Origin: a virus
Direction: 5' to 3' (one strand)
IMG/VR virus record: IMGVR_UViG_3300025009_000135
Location: 1-53,650 of that record
DNA: 53,650 bases
In this document: positions 8,866 to 53,650 of the stretch, in pieces
Layout of the letters: each line of letters begins with the position of its first letter
Numbering within the stretch: the stretch's first letter is position 1
The notes under the pieces: model-generated
Database searches by the model: none
What the model saw: only the letters and a program-made list of their open reading frames with translations
What the model was told of the DNA's origin: nothing
Translations under genes and position numbers: made by a program

Positions 8866-9774
8866 ATGACCTTTACCAAATACCAACATATTGAACGATT
8901 TGGTACCGACGAGGTAGAAAATATCGAACTCGGCGCCTGCCATGTGTTTCCGAAAATCGACGGCACCAATGGAAGCGTTTGGCTTGACGATGATGGAAAA
9001 ATCCAAGCCGGTAGCCGCAATCGTACCCTGTCCCTTGAGGCCGATAATGCCGGATTCGATGCCGCCATTATTGCTGATCCACGCATAGCCGCCTACCTCG
9101 CCAAACATCCCAACCATCGCATCTACGGCGAGTGGCTTGTCCCGCATTCGCTCAAAACATACCGCGATGAGGCGTGGCGAAAATTCTACATTTTCGACGT
9201 GTGCGTCGATGCCCCCGACGGAGGCGTCGAATATCTCCCGTATTCAGTCTATGCCCCGATGCTCGATGAATTCGGGCTCGACTATATCCCGCTTATGGCC
9301 GAAGTGCGCAACGGATCATTCGAGCAGTACGTCGCACTTCTAGAAAAAAACCAATACCTAATCCAGGACGGCCAAGGCGCAGGCGAAGGAATAGTGATAA
9401 AAAACTATTCATATAAAAACAAGTATGGCCGCACGACATGGGCGAAAATGGTTCGCTCAGAGTTCCGCGAGATCCATTCCCGTACCATGGGCGCCCCGAT
9501 TATCAACGGAGAAAAAATGGTAGAGGAAGCAATCGTCGGAAAGTATTGCACATCCGCCTTGATCGACAAAGAACACGCCAAAATAGTCGCCGAGGCCGGC
9601 GCGTGGTCGTCAAAAATGATCCCACGATTTTTGTCAGGCGTGTTCTACGCGCTCGTATCAGAGGAGGCGTGGAATATCGTCAAGGAGTACAAAAATCCGA
9701 CGATCAATTTCAAGACCTTGCAAGCGCTCGTAATTGACAAGATCAAGAAAACCAGGAAGGATATATTTTCTTGA
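8866..9774 (+). CDS. RNA ligase, T4 Rnl2-like family
   Basis: A 302-aa protein with nucleotidyltransferase motifs: PKIDGTNGSVW (motif I, K30 the predicted adenylylated lysine), AGEGIVIKNY (motif IV, about residues 172-181) and TTWAKMVRSEF (motif V). Family members seal nicks in RNA, and phages use them to repair tRNAs cut by host anticodon nucleases. No polynucleotide kinase partner was recognised, but two phage tRNA genes are present. ATG 8866 is preceded by CGGAGGTG. Confidence 0.82.
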   Translation: MTFTKYQHIERFGTDEVENIELGACHVFPKIDGTNGSVWLDDDGKIQAGSRNRTLSLEADNAGFDAAIIADPRIAAYLAKHPNHRIYGEWLVPHSLKTYRDEAWRKFYIFDVCVDAPDGGVEYLPYSVYAPMLDEFGLDYIPLMAEVRNGSFEQYVALLEKNQYLIQDGQGAGEGIVIKNYSYKNKYGRTTWAKMVRSEFREIHSRTMGAPIINGEKMVEEAIVGKYCTSALIDKEHAKIVAEAGAWSSKMIPRFLSGVFYALVSEEAWNIVKEYKNPTINFKTLQALVIDKIKKTRKDIFS

Positions 9775-10004: not shown

Positions 10005-10381
10005 AAGCTATACTTGCGCTTGAGTTGCGCGATGATGGGTCAAGGCAATACATGAAGCCTGCTCGATATATATGCAATGAGATATATCTAGGACTTGATA
10101 AAATTGTAATTGGCAATACGCCTAACGATGCATGGTGCGCAGAAATAATAGAATTTGATACAAAATATAAATATGTAAGAAGATTTTTACCATTTAGAAA
10201 AGATTACTCACAATCTAATTCTATGGGATCGCGCGGAGTGAGAGCAATTTATACACTTTCAGAAAATAAAATATACGAAGCCAAGGAACATAAAAATAGA
10301 TATTTTTGCATGATAAAAGATTGGGAAATTGTAAAAGTGTCAAAAGCAGAGGTGGCGGAATGGCTGAACGAAAAGCGCTAG
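10001..10381 (+). CDS. Hypothetical protein, AT-rich
   Basis: A 126-aa protein starting at TTG 10001, overlapping the preceding TGA. From here to about 11600 the DNA is visibly richer in A and T, with many ATA, AAA and AAT codons, unlike the flanking GCC-rich genes, which suggests acquisition as a block with the next two genes. It ends VSKAEVAEWLNEKR. It may belong functionally with the downstream PAPS-reductase-like/ParB-like pair, but no function is recognised. Confidence 0.6.
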   Translation: MKAILALELRDDGSRQYMKPARYICNEIYLGLDKIVIGNTPNDAWCAEIIEFDTKYKYVRRFLPFRKDYSQSNSMGSRGVRAIYTLSENKIYEAKEHKNRYFCMIKDWEIVKVSKAEVAEWLNEKR

Positions 10382-11619
10382 GAATAGATGTATTGACCGC
10401 CGCGAGGGAACGGGTAGCATATACACTTAGCCAATTCAAGCGCGTATATATCTCGTTTTCAGGTGGTAAAGATTCGACCGTTATGCTTCACCTTGCCATC
10501 GATGAAGCAAAAAAAAGAAACATAAAAATAGGTGTATTGTTTATTGATTGGGAAGTTCAATACAAGCTTACTATTGATCATTGCTTGAAGATATTTGAAG
10601 AATATAAAGATTACATTATTCCGTATTGGGTTGCATTGCCATTAACAACCGAATGTCCGATATCACAATATGCACCATTTTGGACATGCTGGGATAAAGA
10701 CAAAAAAGATTTATGGATACGACAACCGCCTGAATATGCTATTACCGACTATTCATATTTTGATTTTTATACTTATGGAATGACGTTTGAGGAATTTATA
10801 ATAAAGTTCGGAGAATGGTATGCAACGCAAGGATTTAAAAAGGATGAATCGGCTCAAATATTTGAACCTACGGCTTGTATGGTCGGGATACGAGCAGACG
10901 AAAGCCTAAATCGTCTCCTAAAGGTGAGGGTACACGAAAATAGAGAATATTGGAACGATAAAATATATTTGCTTAATTTGAAATCATCGCTTATGGACGT
11001 TGTATTGTGCCATCCATTATACGACTGGAAGACAGAAGATATATGGAAATATAATGGAAAATACTACAAGTCATACAACAAAATATACGATCTTATGTAT
11101 CAGGCTAAGGTACCAATAAGCAAGCAAAGAATAGACGAATTTTTTGGCCCCGAAGCAAGGCGCGGGCTATGGATGCTTCATGAGATAGAGCCGGAAACGT
11201 GGTCAAAGGTTACAGGGAGAATCGTTGGATGCAATTCAGCCGCTTTGTATTCAAAAGAACACGGGAATATTAATGGTGACAGAAAAATAATAAAACCAAA
11301 TGGCCATACATGGAAATCGTTTGCAGAATTGCTTTTGGCGTCTATGCCTGATAAATTATCTGAACATTATAAAAACAAAATAGCGACATATCTACATTGG
11401 TATAAAGAGCGAGGATATGAACGCGGATTGCCAGACGAAATAGAAGGGGATCTTGAAACAAAAGATAAACACCCATCATGGAGGAGAATATGCAAGGTGC
11501 TACTGAGGAACGATTATTGGTGCAAAGCCCTATCTTTCACCCCTACGAAGGCGACGAGCTACGAAAACTATTTGAAAGTAATGAGAAACAGGAGGGCAAG
11601 ATGGGGAATGTTGATTTAG
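10360..11619 (+). CDS. PAPS-reductase/N-type ATP-pyrophosphatase family protein (DUF3440, IbrA-like)
   Basis: A 419-aa protein. SFSGGKDSTVMLHLA (PP-loop SGGKDST, residues 34-40) defines the N-type ATP-pyrophosphatase fold, shared by PAPS reductase and DndC. Cysteines in TECPISQYAPFWTCWD, PTACMVGIRADES and GRIVGCNSA could bind metal or Fe-S. The long C-terminal half and the adjoining ParB-like gene match the IbrA/IbrB arrangement of E. coli prophages. Chemistry is uncertain: sulfur or nucleotidyl transfer to nucleic acid is possible. ATG 10360 follows AGAGGTGG and overlaps the previous gene. DNA here is AT-rich, so recent transfer is likely. Confidence 0.78.
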   Translation: MAERKALGIDVLTAARERVAYTLSQFKRVYISFSGGKDSTVMLHLAIDEAKKRNIKIGVLFIDWEVQYKLTIDHCLKIFEEYKDYIIPYWVALPLTTECPISQYAPFWTCWDKDKKDLWIRQPPEYAITDYSYFDFYTYGMTFEEFIIKFGEWYATQGFKKDESAQIFEPTACMVGIRADESLNRLLKVRVHENREYWNDKIYLLNLKSSLMDVVLCHPLYDWKTEDIWKYNGKYYKSYNKIYDLMYQAKVPISKQRIDEFFGPEARRGLWMLHEIEPETWSKVTGRIVGCNSAALYSKEHGNINGDRKIIKPNGHTWKSFAELLLASMPDKLSEHYKNKIATYLHWYKERGYERGLPDEIEGDLETKDKHPSWRRICKVLLRNDYWCKALSFTPTKATSYENYLKVMRNRRARWGMLI

Positions 11620-12104
11620 CCAAACACCCAGTATCGCGCGTTCAATGGGTTGCCGCCGAATTTGTATATGCTAATGATTACAACCCAAACAGCGTTGCTC
11701 CGCCTGAAATGAAGCTATTGGAAATATCTATTCAAACCGACGGGTTTACACAGCCGATAGTAACGTGGAAAACCGATGAAGGCTATGAGGTGGTAGATGG
11801 ATTCCATCGCCACAAAGTTGGTAAAAAACTCGGGATGTCTCATCTCCCAATTGTAGTTTTGAATGATGAAAACACAAGCAAGGAAGAGCGTATAGCGGCA
11901 ACGATCAGACACAATCGCGCCAGAGGAAAGCATCAAGTTAAAGCTATGTCAGATATTGTCGTCGAGCTGTCGCGTAGAAACTGGAGCGATGAACGCATAG
12001 GCAGAGAGCTAGGAATGGATGCCGACGAAGTTTTACGGCTAAAGCAAATTACTGGGCTTGCGGAGCTTTTCCAAAATGGCGATTTTTCTCCAGCCTGGGA
12101 ATAA
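11601..12104 (+). CDS. ParB/Srx-fold nuclease-domain protein (IbrB-like)
   Basis: A 167-aa protein. DYNPNSVAPPEMKLLEISI, then DGFTQPIVTW, then YEVVDGFHRHKVGKKLG matches the ParB/sulfiredoxin-fold domain (NPR-like box and DGxHR). KEERIAATIRHNRARGKHQ and a helix-turn-helix (SDERIGRELGMDADEVLRL) follow. In IbrA/IbrB pairs this partner directly follows the PAPS-reductase-like gene, as here, with an 18-base overlap. ATG 11601 has a strong AGGAGGG. It may recognise DNA or act enzymatically with its partner. A terminator follows. Confidence 0.78.
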   Translation: MGNVDLAKHPVSRVQWVAAEFVYANDYNPNSVAPPEMKLLEISIQTDGFTQPIVTWKTDEGYEVVDGFHRHKVGKKLGMSHLPIVVLNDENTSKEERIAATIRHNRARGKHQVKAMSDIVVELSRRNWSDERIGRELGMDADEVLRLKQITGLAELFQNGDFSPAWE

Positions 12105-13785: not shown

Positions 13786-14180
13786 TCGGCGCGCTGATTA
13801 CCTGGGGGCTGTGCATCTTGTCATTCCTCGCCGGGTTTATCCTCTGCTCCATGTTTCGCATCGGACGCCTTGATGATGTGGAGCGGACGGAAGCAACTGA
13901 CGCCAGCAAGCCCACCACCGAGACGCCCGCCACCGACGACTATATCGATTGGTCGAAGGTGCCGGATGGGTATGACTGGGTGGCGGTGGATGACCAGCCA
14001 TGCGGAGGACTTACCGCTTGGGCATGGAATAAAAAGCCTAAAATAAAAATGGGAAGCATGTATAAAGACTGGCAAAATGGTGGTAGTTTAAACTTGGTAG
14101 ACGACGCCATCATCGGCCCCCTCCCCCCATGGCGCGAATCCCTCCGCCATCGCCCAACTACCGAAAGTACGCCATCATGA
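13782..14180 (+). CDS. Hypothetical membrane-anchored protein
   Basis: A 132-aa protein. One N-terminal transmembrane segment (IGALITWGLCILSFLAGFIL, residues 2-21) is followed by a soluble part with DGYDWVAVDDQPCGGLTAWA and WNKKPKIKMGSMYKDW, a pattern of aromatic residues seen in several phage hypotheticals. ATG 13782 overlaps the upstream TGA. Confidence 0.6.
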   Translation: MIGALITWGLCILSFLAGFILCSMFRIGRLDDVERTEATDASKPTTETPATDDYIDWSKVPDGYDWVAVDDQPCGGLTAWAWNKKPKIKMGSMYKDWQNGGSLNLVDDAIIGPLPPWRESLRHRPTTESTPS

Positions 14181-14350
14181 CCGCCGTCAACCTGACCCGC
14201 ATCGCCGCCATCGCCCTCGTGGCCCCCGATAGCGACGAAATCCCCCGCGCCGTCGAATCCTATGAGCGCAAAGCCACCCCGGCGCAGATGACTAACCATC
14301 ATATCGGCCCGGCCCGCATCGACCGCAAGCGCGAATGGAGGCGATCATGA
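14177..14350 (+). CDS. Hypothetical small protein
   Basis: A 57-aa protein in the coupled series. ATG 14177 overlaps the preceding TGA and its own TGA overlaps the next ATG. The N-terminus is hydrophobic (NLTRIAAIALVAP) and the C-terminus basic (RIDRKREWRRS). Function unknown. Confidence 0.55.
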   Translation: MTAVNLTRIAAIALVAPDSDEIPRAVESYERKATPAQMTNHHIGPARIDRKREWRRS

Positions 14351-14922
14351 ACGACCACATTCCGGCCGACGCCGCCGAAGCCATAGCCGACAAGCTCCTT
14401 TCCCCGCGCATCGTGTCCCTCGAGCACATATGCGCCCATTCCGCGCCCCTCCCGGCGTCCGAGGGCTTGTGGCTCATCTACAACCTGCGCGCCAAGATGG
14501 CCGAATGCGAGACGATGCGCGCCGACCTCGAGGCAAGAACCCGCGCCGTGTGCATCATCGAATCCGCCATCGACGCCATGCGCGACAACCTCGACGCCGT
14601 GCTCGCGGCTACCACCGAAAGGCCGACGACAGACCGTGCCGAAATGTTACGAGCCATAGACAAGCCTGCTTCCGACGACAGCGAGCGAGCCGAAATCGAA
14701 AGATTCGTCATGAGCGTATGGTTAGCTATTCAGCGAAACATTATTTATTCCGGGCAGTATCTAGGCGTGTTGATATGCAAGCGCCTCGAGGCAGAGGATC
14801 GCATCGAAGAAATCACGGCCATAATAAACGAGCGACTAAAAAGCCGCATGGATATTGTAGCCGAAGAAGTTCAAGCAGACCTATCCTCCCGCCTATCAAC
14901 CACCGAAAGGACAACCCCATGA
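14347..14922 (+). CDS. Terminase-small-subunit-related protein (C-terminal domain paralogue)
   Basis: A 191-aa protein. Residues 118-183 align without gaps to residues 179-244 of the terminase small subunit encoded at 52667-53488: 26 of 66 positions are identical, including ERF/ESF-V, W-x-A-x-QRN, LICKRL and RMD-x-VA. The N-terminal 117 residues show no matching DNA-binding region and instead form a helix-rich domain. Lying in the early block, it could bind the terminase or portal partner and act as a regulator, decoy or assembly factor. ATG 14347 overlaps the preceding TGA. The relationship is seen directly; the role is inference. Confidence 0.7.
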   Translation: MNDHIPADAAEAIADKLLSPRIVSLEHICAHSAPLPASEGLWLIYNLRAKMAECETMRADLEARTRAVCIIESAIDAMRDNLDAVLAATTERPTTDRAEMLRAIDKPASDDSERAEIERFVMSVWLAIQRNIIYSGQYLGVLICKRLEAEDRIEEITAIINERLKSRMDIVAEEVQADLSSRLSTTERTTP

Positions 14923-15155
14923 GCCACAACAACCGCCGTCCTACTCGCCCGTCATTCGGCCCCGGCAAGCCCCGACGTGGCTCCCGCGTAGTCGATTCCG
15001 TCGAAGAGCTGAATGGCGGAAAATGGTACCGCGTTCCGATCCATTGCGGATCATGCGCCCAGTCGTTCCGCTCAACCAAGTGCCAGCATACAGGATGCTC
15101 CGTCAATCGAGAGCTGAACGAGGCAAGGCGAAGGGCCAGCGGCGAAGGCTGGTAA
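14919..15155 (+). CDS. Small zinc-finger-like protein
   Basis: A 78-aa protein. HCGSCAQSFRSTKCQHTGC holds two Cys pairs plus histidines, a probable zinc-binding site, flanked by an Arg-rich N-terminus (NNRRPTRPSFGPGKPRRG) and a basic C-terminus. It probably binds nucleic acid. ATG 14919 overlaps the upstream TGA. Confidence 0.6.
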   Translation: MSHNNRRPTRPSFGPGKPRRGSRVVDSVEELNGGKWYRVPIHCGSCAQSFRSTKCQHTGCSVNRELNEARRRASGEGW

Positions 15156-15165
15156 GGAAAAAATC

Positions 15166-15561
15166 ATGGCCCGCCCCGAGTCCCTAATCCAGCAACAAAT
15201 CGTCGAGCTTCTATCCACGCTCGCGGCGGTGCATGACTTCGTGTTTTTCTCTGTGCCGAATGAATCGTTTCTACTTGGCGGCCTCAATGGCTCCGGTAAG
15301 CAATTCGGCACCCTTGCCACTCTCAAGAAAATGGGAATGCGCCCAGGTGCGGCCGACCTTGTGATCGGCCACGAGGGGAAGATATATTGCATGGAGGTCA
15401 AAGACGCCGACGGCCAGCAATCCGCCGACCAGTTACTATTTGAAGCATGGTGCGTCCGTTGTGGCGTGCCGTACGTCGTCGTGCGATCATCCGGAGAAGT
15501 GCTGTATTGGCTAAGGGAATGGGGAATAATCCCGCAACGAAAAGAAAGGACATCAGAATGA
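15166..15561 (+). CDS. VRR-NUC domain nuclease
   Basis: A 131-aa protein. GMRPGAADLVIG, then KIYCMEVKDADGQQSADQLL, fits the PD-(D/E)xK-type VRR-NUC fold (Asp in AADL, Glu and Lys in EVK, trailing Gln). Stand-alone phage versions are Holliday-junction or structure-specific nucleases, acting in recombination or genome maturation. It lies among recombination and replication genes. ATG 15166 has a weak AAGGAAA upstream. Confidence 0.82.
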   Translation: MARPESLIQQQIVELLSTLAAVHDFVFFSVPNESFLLGGLNGSGKQFGTLATLKKMGMRPGAADLVIGHEGKIYCMEVKDADGQQSADQLLFEAWCVRCGVPYVVVRSSGEVLYWLREWGIIPQRKERTSE

Positions 15562-16424
15562 AGTATAATACCTTTGAACACCCGGTGTTAAAAGAACACG
15601 CAAAAATAAAAAGAATGATAAAACATGGAGAAAAGCCGCGCGGATTTTCATCATTAAAAGATATAATCCTTGAATCATTTAAACTTTCTATTAAAATTAA
15701 AAACGGGACAGCTCAGACGGAAAGTTTAATATTACTAATGTACCACGAAAATAAGTCTACTCATTATTACGTTGAAACGAACGAACTTTATGATTTTTTG
15801 TCTGGGATGCAAATAAAAGAAATTCCCAAGTTAAACTCTGATATTATAGAATCACTTCTTCTTGAGCCTGTAGTTAGGCTTGATGATGGAAGTGAAATGT
15901 GGTGTAACGTTGGGCATATACATTATCAATTAAACGAACCGGCGCTATCATTTTTAATTCTTGTTAGCAAGAGAAACAATAATAATGAACATATAACACT
16001 TTGCCTAATGAGAAACAATGACGTTGTTTATTATGGAGCTAACTTTGATCTTGAAAATATTTATAAAAATGATTGGGGAAATACAAATTCAGATTATCCG
16101 ATTAGTAAAGTAATTTCAGACACGCAATTGGTTATCAATTTTTTAATTTATAAAACAATGTTTCCATGGTTAATAATAAATGATGCTCCATCTGGACAAC
16201 CAGTAGAATATGTGGCATCAACATGCAAAAAAATAAAGACAGAAGAAAGCCTCATAGACAGGTCTGGAGTAACGCCTCATTTTAGGCGCGGACACTTTGC
16301 CCATCTGACTAGCAATAGATATAAAAATGCAAAGGGAAAGTATGTTTTCGTAAAGGCAACATATGTAAAAGGCTTCATGTCAAAAACAGTAATAGATGGA
16401 ATTGACGAACGGAAAGCCATGTGA
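15558..16424 (+). CDS. Hypothetical protein, AT-rich insertion
   Basis: A 288-aa protein. Codon use is strongly A/T-rich compared with its GCC-rich neighbours, which points to acquisition. The C-terminal region carries TPHFRRGHFAHL and KGKYVFVKATYVKGF, a motif (H-x-RRGH, then a lysine-rich strand) recurring in uncharacterised phage proteins. ATG 15558 overlaps the VRR-NUC stop. A host-takeover or defence-related cargo function is possible but not supported by a named family. Confidence 0.6.
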   Translation: MKYNTFEHPVLKEHAKIKRMIKHGEKPRGFSSLKDIILESFKLSIKIKNGTAQTESLILLMYHENKSTHYYVETNELYDFLSGMQIKEIPKLNSDIIESLLLEPVVRLDDGSEMWCNVGHIHYQLNEPALSFLILVSKRNNNNEHITLCLMRNNDVVYYGANFDLENIYKNDWGNTNSDYPISKVISDTQLVINFLIYKTMFPWLIINDAPSGQPVEYVASTCKKIKTEESLIDRSGVTPHFRRGHFAHLTSNRYKNAKGKYVFVKATYVKGFMSKTVIDGIDERKAM

Positions 16425-40870: not shown

Positions 40871-40899
40871 GATATAGGCAGTAGACCGAAATCTGTCTA
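40871..40899 (-). promoter_or_regulatory. Late promoter for the protease/capsid/tail unit
   Basis: Minus-strand TAGACA (40899-40894), a 17-bp spacer, TATATC (40876-40871) followed by TAT. The TAG of the -35 is the stop codon of the upstream gene (40897-40899). The predicted start is about 40863. Confidence 0.8.
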
Positions 40900-41505
40900 G
40901 GGGGTATGTGATTTTTCAAGTTCTTCGACACCAGCATATACGGGAATGCCTAGGTTTTTAGCAATTCGTATTTCTTCGGTAGCGCCTTTTGAGTTTTCCC
41001 ATCCAGAAAGCGCAAGTATTCCGTCAACATCCATTATGGCTTTTATATCTTCGCGCATATAATCTTGCCACAGTTTATGTTTTGATAATACCCCGAGAGC
41101 AAAGGGATTAACCGGAGTATATCCATTTTGAATAAGTAGTTTTGATGCTAGATCAAATTCAGGCTTATTGTATTTTTCAATTCCTGTTATCGGCCCTGAT
41201 ATGTATATTTTTTTATTGTTTTGTCTTGGGCGATAATCAAACCATCCGAGAAACAACAGGCAACAAATAGCGTGAGCGGTGTGTGGTAATCCGCTTTCAT
41301 CGTCTATAATTTTACCCATAAGACGCGCCCATATATGGCGTATCGCGGCAGAAATATATCGTATTTTTGCCATTGGTACGCGCATCCAGTTATTCGGTTC
41401 ATATTTTAGAGCGCCCATAGAAAGCACTTTTGCTACATCTTCTAGAGGCTCGGGCGGTATCAGATCAAATCTTGGTTTACCTATATCGTATTTTACGCCT
41501 TCCAT
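40897..41505 (-). CDS. Fusion of dATP/dGTP pyrophosphohydrolase-like (DUF5664) and deoxyribosyltransferase-like (DUF4406) domains
   Basis: A 202-aa protein. Residues 1-97 (KPRFDLIPPEPLEDVAKVL, KYEPNNWMRV, SAAIRHIWARLMG, LPHTAHAICCLLF) match DUF5664 MazG-superfamily proteins. Residues 98-202 (KKIYISGPITGIEKYN, YTPVNPFA, REDIKAIMDVDGILALSGWE) match DUF4406, nucleoside 2-deoxyribosyltransferase-like. The pair would act on nucleotide pools or modified bases. ATG 41505 follows GAGGAGG. Confidence 0.75.
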   Translation of the reverse strand: MEGVKYDIGKPRFDLIPPEPLEDVAKVLSMGALKYEPNNWMRVPMAKIRYISAAIRHIWARLMGKIIDDESGLPHTAHAICCLLFLGWFDYRPRQNNKKIYISGPITGIEKYNKPEFDLASKLLIQNGYTPVNPFALGVLSKHKLWQDYMREDIKAIMDVDGILALSGWENSKGATEEIRIAKNLGIPVYAGVEELEKSHTP

Positions 41506-43573: not shown

Positions 43574-45274
43574 TTACCTCGCTTCTATGGCTATTTTTTG
43601 CGGCTTGGCGGTGATTGACACATGGGGCGCATATCCATCGATTGCCAAGTGCTGGATTTTGGCGGTGATTTGTATGCGCGCGGTATAGGATACTGCTGTT
43701 CCGATTGTCAAAGTTCCTGACACCAAAGAAATCGAAACGACAGCTCCGGCTAATAGTTTGCCGACAGACAGCGATCCGGATGCTGACGATGTTGCTTGGA
43801 CGTTGCCTGAAAGACCTGTCTCGGTAAGTTCGCCCGAAGTTGAAGATTCCGCATGCACCGATCCTGACAATGGCTTACCGACAGAAAGAGAACCAGACGC
43901 GGAGCTGGTTGCGATTATTGACCCGGACAAGTCTGCCGATCCCGCAAGGGTACCGGAGGCGGTGGAGACGGCCGAGACCAGTCCAGACAGCGGCTTGCCT
44001 ACCGACAAGGAGCCGGACGCTGCGGAGCTGGCTGAGACGCTTCCGGATAAGGATGCTGATCCTGATAGCTCGCCACATGCGGAAGACGTTGCGGTGACAT
44101 TTCCGGCAAGGGGTTTTTCAACCGAGATGGTGGCGGCGGCTGATGATTCTGCGGCGACTGTTCCCGATAAAAATTTGCCAACAGACAAGGCACCCGCCAC
44201 CGTCGAGGCGGCGGCTATGGCCCCCGCGAGTGGCTTTGATACCGACAGCGCGCCGCTTGCCGCGCTCGATGCCGAGACTTCCCCGGCGAGGGGCTTGCCG
44301 ACGGACAGCGCGCCGGAGACGGTAGAGGTTGCGGATACGGAGCCTTCGAGGTCTGCTCCACTACCTGCCGTGTACTCGTCTACACCGATGTCGCACGTAG
44401 TACCTGCTCGAGCGTCTCCATCGATATCGGTTGCTGGTACATTTGCGTCCGATGACGGCCCGATGCCGGAGTCATACAAATTGCCTGAATTGAGTAATGT
44501 AAAATTGCCATTGGCTGGATCTGAAAACTCGTTAGTCCATGCCCCGCCAGACGGGGTAACAGGGTTGCTACCGTCGCCGTCATCCGATGCACAATAGCTT
44601 ATCGTTATCGTGCCGTCAAAGTCATCAGTGCTTTCAAATACTGCACTGTTAACTACAGTTACTGTTCCTCCGTCGCGTTCAACACCATCATCAGCATAGG
44701 CGGCCACGCAGTTGTAAATAACCATTGTGCCATTGATGGCATAAAATCCTTGGCTTGACGAAGCGCGAGGAGTGCCGCCGTTAAACGAGATACAGTTTTC
44801 AAACTTTACGGAAGCACTTGTTGTGGAAGTGACAAAGCCCGATCCGCCACCTTGATAACGTGCGTAGCAATTTTTGACAACAATCCCCGTATTAGCGGTG
44901 TTAGTCTCATAGCAGAATCCGGCAGTAGTACAATCAAGTTGCAAGCCGTCGATTACGGTATAGTCTTGTTGTACGCGGAAGTCACGAGTATCGTCCATTT
45001 GAAGGATATATTTCGAGCTGTCGATACCAGACTTTGATGCGCGGTTTGCCGAGTCAGTAACGACCTTGACATAATAATCAGCCGACGTTATAAACCCGGT
45101 CAACACTACAGCGGTCGTATCCGGGCCACCAGACCAGTCGTCTTCGATGGATATGGTTAAGATACCTTCCATCGTGACAAGGTTTGCATTTGCCGACACT
45201 TCGCCCGTAATCGCCGCCTGAAAAGATGTATAGTCTCCGCCACTCGGGCGGACGGTTACGGTTTTATTGGCCAT
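43574..45274 (-). CDS. Beta-helix protein with 20-residue tandem repeats (possible spike or decoration)
   Basis: A 566-aa protein. Residues 1-300 form a right-handed beta-helix-like region (VIDGLQLDC, IVVKNCYA, VKFENCISF, MVIYNCVAAY) ending DIDGDARAGTTCDIGVDEY, the choice-of-anchor-Q type signature. Residues about 309-527 hold some 11 copies of a 20-aa Ser/Ala/Gly repeat (LSGSVSASSAASGSLSVGKP). Probably a surface-exposed virion protein. Confidence 0.65.
   Translation of the reverse strand: MANKTVTVRPSGGDYTSFQAAITGEVSANANLVTMEGILTISIEDDWSGGPDTTAVVLTGFITSADYYVKVVTDSANRASKSGIDSSKYILQMDDTRDFRVQQDYTVIDGLQLDCTTAGFCYETNTANTGIVVKNCYARYQGGGSGFVTSTTSASVKFENCISFNGGTPRASSSQGFYAINGTMVIYNCVAAYADDGVERDGGTVTVVNSAVFESTDDFDGTITISYCASDDGDGSNPVTPSGGAWTNEFSDPANGNFTLLNSGNLYDSGIGPSSDANVPATDIDGDARAGTTCDIGVDEYTAGSGADLEGSVSATSTVSGALSVGKPLAGEVSASSAASGALSVSKPLAGAIAAASTVAGALSVGKFLSGTVAAESSAAATISVEKPLAGNVTATSSACGELSGSASLSGSVSASSAASGSLSVGKPLSGLVSAVSTASGTLAGSADLSGSIIATSSASGSLSVGKPLSGSVHAESSTSGELTETGLSGNVQATSSASGSLSVGKLLAGAVVSISLVSGTLTIGTAVSYTARIQITAKIQHLAIDGYAPHVSITAKPQKIAIEAR
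43694..44350 (-). repeat. Tandem 60-bp coding repeats in the beta-helix protein
   Basis: About 11 repeats of 60 bp encode 20-aa units with consensus L-[SA]-G-x-V-x-A-x-S-S-x-S-G-x-L-S-V-G-K-P; one unit is 19 aa. Copies have diverged, so they are old or under selection, and the array could change length by recombination. Confidence 0.75.
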
Positions 45275-49948: not shown

Positions 49949-50671
49949 CTATTTTTTATCCAGCTCAGACAGTTTCTTTTTGGCTCCGATAATCCAAAGC
50001 TTGTCGATTTCGGCTTCGGTTAATTCTTTGACGGCTCCCTCGAATAGCGGAGCGGGCTTGATTTGGACAGAGTCGCGGTCGGCATAGCGGACCATGGTCA
50101 CTTTTTTGCGCGTGACGTGGAAGATGGCATCGGGCGATTGGTACATGCCGGGCTTAAGGCCGCGCTTGGCTAGGCTGTAGAGAAGGGCGTACTGTTGGCG
50201 TACGTTCGGCGTTCCAAGCTGGCGCTGATATTGATTGATTGTTTTCGCCAAGCGGAACCGAGGGGCGACGGGTTTGTTTTGATCGCCTTCGCGGGCGGTG
50301 GCGAGCGGAACAGGGACGCGGGCGCCTGAGCCTTTGGCGCCTTTTTTCTTTCCGCCTATTTCCATGGCCGCAAGGTAATGGTCGCCTCCGCGCAGTTGCT
50401 TGACGCCGACTATAGCATTCACGTCATCCATACGGCGGAGGGTTTTCTTGTCAGATCGGTACGCTTTGGCTTGTAGAACGACGACAGAGCCGAGGGTAAA
50501 TTTCTCATTGCGAAGGCGGGTTTTGCCGCGTAGGGCTTTTTTGTAGCGGACAGCGATAAGCTTGGCGCCCATGGTCATAGCTTCGGCGCCCGCTTCTTGC
50601 AGTGCGATTCCGGCGCGTTGGAGGCGGCCCAGGATCTCGGGAAAATTGTCTTTGTAGTATTGGCTACTCAT
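49949..50671 (-). CDS. Putative virion assembly protein (HK97-gp10-like?)
   Basis: A 240-aa basic protein after the large terminase. LQRAGIALQEAGAEAMTMGA resembles the start of HK97 gp10-type neck proteins, and the middle is Lys/Gly-rich. ATG 50671 has GGAG upstream; a TTG at 50692 is open. Family is tentative. Confidence 0.5.
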   Translation of the reverse strand: MSSQYYKDNFPEILGRLQRAGIALQEAGAEAMTMGAKLIAVRYKKALRGKTRLRNEKFTLGSVVVLQAKAYRSDKKTLRRMDDVNAIVGVKQLRGGDHYLAAMEIGGKKKGAKGSGARVPVPLATAREGDQNKPVAPRFRLAKTINQYQRQLGTPNVRQQYALLYSLAKRGLKPGMYQSPDAIFHVTRKKVTMVRYADRDSVQIKPAPLFEGAVKELTEAEIDKLWIIGAKKKLSELDKK

Positions 50672-52670
50672 TGTATGACTCCATGATTTCAAAGAATTTT
50701 ACCCAGTCGACGGCAACTTCGGTTTTTTTGTTGGCGCGGCGGGCTTTGTTGATCGCTTCGTAGTACTCGGCGCACAGGTAGAATCGGGCAGCGTAGTTCA
50801 TTTTCATAACGTCGAGGGGTTCGTTTCGGCGCTGGTGGGGGTTTTGGATTACGTGGGTTATCTTGCCATTCTTGCCTACGACTTCGATCATTTCTTCGGC
50901 GACTAATTGCTTGTAGAAGTCGGTATGGAGGTCAGCTGGGAAGTGGATGTAATACCTGGGGTATGGTGCGTCAGCGGTGGCGCGGTCGCGCTCGAGGCTG
51001 GCGTACACCATTTTTTTGAAACGTTGATCGTTGATGAGGATTGACGGATTGGCGATAGGGCTTGGGCTTTTTTTGTACGTGCGCCCGACAATTTGTTGAT
51101 CGCGGCCAAATACGGGGAAGACGCCATTCGGGGAATTTCGGCGCGGGGGATACATTCCGCATATTGACATGACAGCATCGGTGGAGAATCCGGCATCGAC
51201 AAATACGACCTTAGGCGCGCCAAGGTTGACGCCGTCCTCGCGGGTAGCTTCGTCGGTTATGGTTTGCGCCCACCTCCGCCAGCAATCGTCATCGGGGTCG
51301 GCAGGGTCGCCTTCGAAAGTCCAATATTTGAGCATCCAAGCTTCGTCGTTTTTACCCCAACCTACCAACGCGGATTCGATGCGGTTGCTTTGTACGTCGG
51401 TGGCGTGGGTGGTAAAAATGACGCCTTGAGGAATTCGGGTGTCGTCTTGCTTCCACGGTTCGGCACGGCGGGCGAGGACATGCGGCTCGGGGGTTTTTAC
51501 GGTGACATCGGAGCATTCGGCAAGCGAGTCGTTGATGAAGTCGGGGTACAGGATCGGGTCGTCTTTGACGCGCCAGTATTGCATGACGATATCAAGCCAC
51601 GAGCGGGTCGGGGAGTATAGGGCGTTGACTTGGCACGACCATAGGCCGGGACGGTCGGGCTTTTTTTGCGGGGTATATTCGGCGGTGCCGCCTTGCTTGC
51701 GGGTCAACAGGAGCTTAAACTTTTCGTGTTCGCGGAGAATGTGATCACAATCGATATTTTGGCAACGGTAGAAAGTTGGGTCATGAGTCACGCGGCCGTC
51801 ATCGTCCATGTCCACGCGGGGGGAGCCGTCTTCGTTTTTGTCCCAGTCCATGCCGGCCCAGACAAACGGCTGGCGATGGTTGCATTTGGGACAGACCCAG
51901 GTGAAGAGGCTTTTTGTACCGGACTCGAACAGGGGCAGAATCTGCGAGGTTGCTTTTTCTTTCGGGGTTGAGTTGTAATAGATGCGCCGATTGACGCCGT
52001 AGTTGTCGGTTCTTCGGACCACTTTCTCGACGGGGTTGCCTTTGCCTTTAAGGGACTGGGGGTACACGTCTATCTCTTCAACAATGGCAATTCTCGCCGG
52101 CATGGATCGGAGCTGACCTTCCGAGTTCGGGCCGACGGCGCGGATATGCGTGCCCTTGTAAGACTTGACGCCCTTGGTATCGCCGGTTGCACGGGCACCG
52201 CCGGATTTTTTGACGATTGGTTTAATGTGATGGCGAAGGCCGGACGCCTCAAGAAGCGGGTCAAGTCGCTTCTCAAAAGTTTCTTCGGCCATGGTTTGAT
52301 CGCCGGATATAAAGAGCTGCGGGCCGATACCGTAGTAAATATAATAGGCGATTAGGGCAAACGAGAGCATAGACATGCCGAGCTGGTTGGATTTGATGAT
52401 AGCGATTTCTTGTGTGAGGGAGCGGATTGACATGCGGTCGGCTATTTCATGGAGGTATGGGGTCAGGCGGAATGAGTACGGGCCTTGATAGTCGCCTTCG
52501 ACAATAACGATATGATCTTCGATCCAATCGGAGGCGGGCATGTTGGGGATACCGCGCGGCATGGTATCGACTAGGGCGGAGAGAAAGCGGATAAAGTCAT
52601 CTTGCTGTTCTGGGGTGCGGATGCTTTCGACTTGGTGACGGTGAATCGGGAGCTTGATGGTGGAGGTCAT
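50664..52670 (-). CDS. terL: Terminase large subunit (GpA-like)
   Basis: A 668-aa protein. IAIIKSNQLGMSMLSFALIA is the ATPase P-loop region in GpA style, IAIVEEIDVYPQSLKG holds the Walker B and adjacent acid, and DAGFSTDAVMS fits the nuclease motif. CPKCNHRQP...CQNIDCDHIL forms a zinc site. It packages DNA into the prohead through the portal. ATG 52670 overlaps the terS stop. Confidence 0.88.
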   Translation of the reverse strand: MTSTIKLPIHRHQVESIRTPEQQDDFIRFLSALVDTMPRGIPNMPASDWIEDHIVIVEGDYQGPYSFRLTPYLHEIADRMSIRSLTQEIAIIKSNQLGMSMLSFALIAYYIYYGIGPQLFISGDQTMAEETFEKRLDPLLEASGLRHHIKPIVKKSGGARATGDTKGVKSYKGTHIRAVGPNSEGQLRSMPARIAIVEEIDVYPQSLKGKGNPVEKVVRRTDNYGVNRRIYYNSTPKEKATSQILPLFESGTKSLFTWVCPKCNHRQPFVWAGMDWDKNEDGSPRVDMDDDGRVTHDPTFYRCQNIDCDHILREHEKFKLLLTRKQGGTAEYTPQKKPDRPGLWSCQVNALYSPTRSWLDIVMQYWRVKDDPILYPDFINDSLAECSDVTVKTPEPHVLARRAEPWKQDDTRIPQGVIFTTHATDVQSNRIESALVGWGKNDEAWMLKYWTFEGDPADPDDDCWRRWAQTITDEATREDGVNLGAPKVVFVDAGFSTDAVMSICGMYPPRRNSPNGVFPVFGRDQQIVGRTYKKSPSPIANPSILINDQRFKKMVYASLERDRATADAPYPRYYIHFPADLHTDFYKQLVAEEMIEVVGKNGKITHVIQNPHQRRNEPLDVMKMNYAARFYLCAEYYEAINKARRANKKTEVAVDWVKFFEIMESYNE

Positions 52671-53488
52671 TTCTTCCTTCTCCCCTCCGCGCTTTTCTTT
52701 CCGCCCGTCGCCGGTTCCGGCTCTTCCTCGTCCTCTTCGATATCCGCTTTTTGCGTCATGCGCCCGGCTAATATAGCTTGGATTTCATGCGCGACGTTAT
52801 CCATGCGCTTCGATATGTCTCCTTCGAGCACGTCCATGACTTCGGTTTCGTGGCCGACCATGCCAAGACGTTTGCAGATCAATGACGCTTGCTTCGGGGC
52901 CACGTCGATATAGTTTCTTTGGAGCGCTTGCCACAATTCCAAAACAAACGACTCGAATACTTCGCGCTCTCCAAGGGTGCCGTGCATCTTATCTAGGTTG
53001 GCTTGCTTGAGCTGGGCGTCGGCTTTTATTTTTTGGGCTTCGTACAGATTTTTTCGGAGGACTTCGATCATTTCGGCGGGGGAAAATGCGGGGTTGCCTT
53101 CGCCTTCTTCGGACTGAAGTTTGTCGATTCCCATGATTGAGGCGAGGATGTCGCCGATACCTTGGCGGCCGGGCTTGTCTTTGGCGGCTGGGCGTTCGGT
53201 CTCGTCGCTGGAATCCTTGCGCCGAGGGGTTGGCTGATGTTCTGGCTTGCGTGGACGGCCTCGCTTGGCTGGGGCGGGAGGATCGCTTGGGGGTGGCGGC
53301 GGCGGGGCATTGAGGGCCATGAGGCCGGACGGGTTATGTTTGAGGATATAGGACTGATTGACTGGGTTGTCTGTATCGATGCGGCCGTCGGCGTCGGCGA
53401 TCAAGGTGCCTTTGGCGACGAGCTGATTGATTGATGCGCGGTTGACTTTGCAGACGGCAGCAAAGCGGGCTTGTTTTAATAGCGGCAT
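52667..53488 (-). CDS. terS: Terminase small subunit
   Basis: A 273-aa protein. The N-terminus (ARFAAVCKVNRASINQLVAK) is a helix-turn-helix like Nu1-type small terminases. A Pro-rich linker (60-110) leads to a helical C-terminal domain (FVLELWQALQRNYIDV, LICKRLGM, RMDNVAHEIQAIL). That domain is duplicated in the early protein at 14347-14922. It recognises packaging sites and binds TerL. Confidence 0.75.
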   Translation of the reverse strand: MPLLKQARFAAVCKVNRASINQLVAKGTLIADADGRIDTDNPVNQSYILKHNPSGLMALNAPPPPPPSDPPAPAKRGRPRKPEHQPTPRRKDSSDETERPAAKDKPGRQGIGDILASIMGIDKLQSEEGEGNPAFSPAEMIEVLRKNLYEAQKIKADAQLKQANLDKMHGTLGEREVFESFVLELWQALQRNYIDVAPKQASLICKRLGMVGHETEVMDVLEGDISKRMDNVAHEIQAILAGRMTQKADIEEDEEEPEPATGGKKSAEGRRKK

Positions 53489-53637: not shown

Positions 53638-53650
53638 CCCGAAAGGTACT

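Follow-up and report, generated by a model that had tools for sequence, protein, structure and literature searches.

A phage gene that joins a private N-terminal part to a diverged copy of the C-terminal half of the phage's own small terminase subunit

The paralogue and its gene block

The window analyzed here is the whole stretch of 53,650 nucleotides of the IMG/VR virus record IMGVR_UViG_3300025009_000135, the one metagenomic record from which the gene under study is known. The C-terminal half of this gene product resembles the small terminase subunit (TerS) encoded elsewhere in the same record, and the gene is referred to below as the paralogue. The paralogue and its neighbours are arranged as follows:

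14347..14922 (+): chimeric gene, TerS C-terminal-like paralogue of 191 aa (ATG at 14347, TGA at 14920-14922)
14347..14655 (+): private N-terminal part, paralogue residues 1-103 (sequence comparison, GC3, AlphaFold2)
14656..14898 (+): TerS-like C-terminal domain, paralogue residues 104-184 (BLASTP, AlphaFold2)
14177..14350 (+): GC-rich ORF of 57 aa directly upstream, overlapping the paralogue start codon by ATGA
14919..15155 (+): Cys-containing ORF of 78 aa directly downstream, overlapping the paralogue stop codon by ATGA
15166..15561 (+): endonuclease or Holliday-junction-resolvase-like gene of the same block (phrog_824, 1.9e-16; phrog_93, 4.9e-8; phrog_5702, 4.8e-5)

The reading frame was found exactly where the initial annotation had placed it; it is intact and preceded by a Shine-Dalgarno sequence (GGAGG) 5 bp ahead of the ATG. 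According to PHROGs, its surroundings comprise helicase, exonuclease and resolvase-like genes, and judging from this gene content the paralogue would be expressed early. The resolvase-like gene, two ORFs downstream, had been labelled VRR-NUC, a name for which there was no Pfam match, but the PHROG matches do agree with a nuclease of the endonuclease or Holliday junction resolvase-like kind. Its vicinity, together with the start and stop codon overlaps of the paralogue with its neighbours, could be taken to mean that replication or recombination is coupled to packaging, the large terminase subunit (TerL) or TerS being tethered to processed concatemers via the resolvase-like nuclease and the helicase; we regard this as very unlikely, adjacency being the sole argument for it and functions mixing freely in phage operons. 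A role in anti-phage defence was discarded, as PADLOC gave no match.

Beside the resolvase-like gene lies an orphan gene of 288 aa (15558-16424) with the lowest GC3 (0.27) among the record's listed genes, a candidate for recent insertion. An RNA ligase gene (8866-9774; phrog_548, 4e-43) is situated shortly past the primase/helicase, and at 10306-12104 a PAPS-reductase-like gene (GC3 0.36) overlaps a ParB-like gene, an arrangement that resembles an IbrA/IbrB-like pair.

Packaging genes and record ends

The terminase genes and the terminal repeat lie at the following positions:

52667..53488 (-): TerS, Nu1-like, 273 aa (phrog_57, TerS profile, AlphaFold2), consisting of a winged-HTH (residues 1-50), a linker, a coiled coil (137-169), a C-terminal hairpin (175-240) and a charged tail (246-273)
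52754..52996 (-): TerS residues 165-245, the segment in common with the paralogue (BLASTP and search against the own record)
50664..52670 (-): TerL of the gpA type, with ATPase and nuclease domains (PF05876, 5.3e-46; PF20454, 2.8e-44)
53638..53650 and 1-13 (no strand): 13-bp direct repeat CCCGAAAGGTACT, found nowhere else in the record

TerS matched phrog_57 (9.5e-8) as well as a profile compiled from 41 TerS proteins that are encoded upstream of distant TerL genes (probability 96, E 4.9e-9), the latter match spanning both the winged-HTH and the C-terminal half. Lambda TerS in turn matched the family profile that includes the TerS of this phage (E 3.4e-6), and by these comparisons the protein is of the lambda Nu1 type. 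Its residue 165 aligns approximately with residue 101 of lambda TerS, the alignment itself being approximate beyond lambda residue 113. In lambda TerS the N-terminal part binds DNA and residues 100-181 interact with TerL (PMC6739421), oligomerisation being located mid-protein and TerL binding at the C-terminal end (PMC9026076). Given this layout and a match that begins near lambda residue 101, the paralogue contains only the non-DNA-binding half.

The TerS start lies 162 bp away from the record end (lambda nu1 starts at bp 191), and given this distance the 13-bp terminal repeat is likely a filled-in cohesive (cos) end, so that an entire cos genome may be present in the record. A lambda-like cos phage would fit both the record ends and the position of TerS. 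The paralogue does not adjoin terL and cos, as it lies on the other strand, roughly 36-38 kb away along the record. The distance of some 38 kb from terS given in the initial annotation holds along the record (37.7 kb) but shrinks to about 14.5 kb when measured across the record ends.

The left end of the record also carries a cluster of TGGTAGC-type direct repeats at 193-411, which recur every 11 bp at 360-403 and of which inverted copies lie at 133-150. The gene at 40897-41505 (-), inside the structural block, appears to encode a fusion of a dATP/dGTP pyrophosphohydrolase-like and a nucleoside 2-deoxyribosyltransferase-like part. A 566-aa protein encoded at 43574-45274 (-) has a C-terminal half rich in SVSASSAASGSLSVGKPLSG-type repeats.

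Homology, mosaic composition and predicted structure

Paralogue residues 104-184 align without gaps to TerS residues 165-245, with 30 of the 81 positions identical (BLASTP, E 2e-13). When the paralogue was searched against its own record, TerS came second (E 3.4e-11) and there was no third place; the Smith-Waterman score of the pair (127, z 18.5) was far above the maximum of 65 reached in 5000 shuffles. The two proteins were also the top pair in an all-against-all comparison of 362 ORFs of the window (8.9e-10 with the low-complexity filter on, the runner-up pair having 3.5e-4) and are the only convincing paralogue pair within the record. The count of 26 identities out of 66 reported earlier for paralogue residues 118-183 against TerS 179-244, including the QRN, LICKRL and RMDxVAxE blocks, was reproduced exactly at an offset of 61. 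The homology, however, begins about 14 residues earlier than had been noted, and the supposed 117-residue domain of its own shrinks to a private N-terminal part of about 103 residues, the BLASTP match starting at residue 104. A significant profile match had been asked of the two segments: the pair match is significant, but the paralogue alone misses a profile of the TerS family from which this phage was left out, and its link to the TerS family runs via the phage's own TerS, which does match the family profile.

The lack of the TerS DNA-binding N-terminus was borne out, with paralogue residues 1-104 and TerS residues 1-165 being dissimilar (shuffle p 0.09); a hint of TerS-like signal in the private half obtained with MAFFT was dismissed as not significant (P 0.16). 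No winged-HTH was detected in this part either, which gave no family-profile match and is predicted, with low confidence there, to be all-helical and devoid of wing strands. As the winged-HTH was looked for and not found, the paralogue should not be classed as a TerS. The C-terminal helical region for oligomerisation or TerL binding does appear to be present, by its likeness to the phage's own TerS.

The paralogue is a mosaic in composition. Residues 1-96 have a GC3 of 0.86, more than any other of the stretches listed, vs. 0.52 for residues 97-191, and the best change-point, at codons 87-94, gave a log-likelihood gain of 14.9 (maximum of 2000 shuffles: 11.4). Since this shift falls near the homology start at residue 104, the TerS-like half looks joined to sequence of a different origin; the short ORF upstream of the paralogue is GC-rich at third positions as well (0.79). 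The nucleotide identity of only 50% in the common half indicates that the split between the two copies is old, and a saturated pS of 0.79 vs. a pN of 0.42 shows that the amino-acid sequence was kept in both after they separated. In a tree of the C-terminal domain the paralogue and TerS were sisters (support 99/93), a placement that involves long branches. A non-functional or decaying product, in which terS 3' sequence was captured via illegitimate recombination, would account for the sharp composition shift within the gene and agree with the lack of relatives that could display conservation. It is nevertheless quite unlikely in view of selection on both copies long after the split, the intact ORF and its Shine-Dalgarno sequence.

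In the AlphaFold2 model of TerS the winged-HTH and the coiled coil (137-169) are followed by a helical hairpin (175-208 and 214-240). The paralogue is predicted to form helices at residues 7-31, 37-91, 97-105, 111-146 and 150-188, the private part being all-helical with one long helix (37-91) at low to middling confidence, and its hairpin of helices 111-146 and 150-188 would coincide with that of TerS at the same offset of 61. This model is of moderate quality (pLDDT 73, pTM 0.39) and, because TerS rows were present in its alignment, it is consistent with the sequence result and not independent of it. Fold searches with the paralogue and TerS models against the PDB gave no significant match, and the middling Z scores obtained for the helical hairpin carry little meaning.

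So simple a predicted hairpin could have been re-used as a plain self-oligomerisation module, with the actual job residing in the private N-terminal helices and no contact with the terminase at all. This is the main rival to a packaging modulator, although we consider it rather doubtful. In its favour, the paralogue shares neither the charged tail of TerS (246-273) nor the coiled coil just ahead of the common segment, and its gene is placed amid helicase, exonuclease and resolvase-like genes. On the other hand, 16 of the 30 identical residues are polar or charged, above the apparent need of pure packing, and the closest sequence is the phage's own TerS and not another protein. Many of the polar residues common to both copies depart from the family consensus (QRN, CKR, RMD), which would be expected if the paralogue and TerS face the same partner.

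Relatives, known analogues and a possible role in packaging

No relatives of the paralogue or of TerS were found in phage, plasmid, IMG/VR and GTDB contig collections. The IMG/VR scans used peptide and DNA patterns that required exact short matches, so their null results are limited, and the sole pattern match, inside a SWI/SNF-type helicase, was rejected. The genome search consisted of four draws (385, 153, 369, and 297 genomes) centred on Alpha- and Gammaproteobacteria, run without a positive control and thus likewise of limited weight as a null result. Its sole match, a weak one of 43 residues, fell in a long reading frame at a locus that gave no TerL match, and was taken as chance. The nearest TerL relatives among the matches listed were about 25-31% identical. 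When 18 other phage records were compared with their own TerS, 17 had no second copy of any part; these were distant phages only, some of the records being incomplete. In the remaining one, a 37-kb IMG/VR record (G020), the second TerS is not a partial copy but full-length and beside its own TerL, the record containing two related phage packaging modules in tandem (L185 and L186), each with TerS and TerL. Judging from these distant phages only, a stand-alone C-terminal TerS paralogue seems uncommon.

Among known proteins, the lambda Nu1-type TerS (phrog_57) is represented in the C-terminal half of the paralogue by a diverged copy of the phage's own version, from which the gene differs by the lack of a winged-HTH and of a terL neighbour, by another N-terminal half and by another operon. 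Rpp of Gram-negative phage-inducible islands, a partial TerS mimic with the potential for a TerS heterocomplex (PMC6739421), can be regarded as the closest functional analogue, and the paralogue as roughly its converse. Rpp mimics the DNA-binding half of TerS (PMC6739421) and seems to be without the TerL-binding C-terminus (PMC9026076), whereas the paralogue keeps the C-terminal half, lacks the DNA-binding half and is phage-encoded. Mimicry of the TerS DNA-binding dimer is not seen in the paralogue, which is dissimilar to the TerS N-terminus, and a phmmer search with it against all PDB sequences (E <= 1) gave zero matches, Rpp being deposited there as 6HLK and 6HN7 (PMC6739421). The SaPI TerS homologue, which recognises the SaPI genome (PMC6739421), and Ppi are likewise extra proteins that alter which TerS partners TerL, but they are encoded by satellites.

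Satellites do contest TerS, with Rpp binding the helper TerS and Ppi blocking the phage TerS (PMC6739421), and the paralogue could accordingly be imagined as a decoy against satellites or superinfecting relatives with similar terminase subunits, whose packaging it would poison. We consider this unlikely: the IMG/VR scans gave no satellite or relative with such a TerS, and because the paralogue most resembles the phage's own TerS, self-interference would be expected.

The reading we favour, to which we give a little less than an even chance, is that the paralogue is a TerS derivative without DNA binding that associates with TerS, TerL or both and modulates packaging. The 3' half of terS, taken either from this phage or from one closely related to it, would have been copied into the replication/recombination operon and attached to the 3' end of an unrelated, GC-rich segment coding for helices, so that the N-terminal helices replace the winged-HTH and the C-terminal hairpin may retain a surface for association with TerS itself and/or with TerL. 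Co-produced with the replication proteins, the paralogue would be incorporated into TerS oligomers, or would engage TerL but fail to bring it to cos, and the cutting and packaging of replicating DNA would thereby be delayed or damped. Such damping is plausible since surplus TerS inhibits packaging in the T4 and SPP1 systems (PMC9611059). Of the two contacts, mixing with TerS is likelier than TerL binding, because the tail after residue 245 is absent and the last 22-30 residues of lambda and P22 TerS are required for TerL (PMC9026076); going by sequence, the contact with TerL may have been lost in the paralogue. A more specific and doubtful version would make the paralogue a self-encoded dominant-negative TerS, reduced to the oligomerisation/TerL-binding half and made during replication, that holds the terminase off cos until late infection.

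The timing of the switch from replication to packaging in phages is poorly understood, and a self-encoded partial TerS would, if true, be a direct device for timing or quality control.
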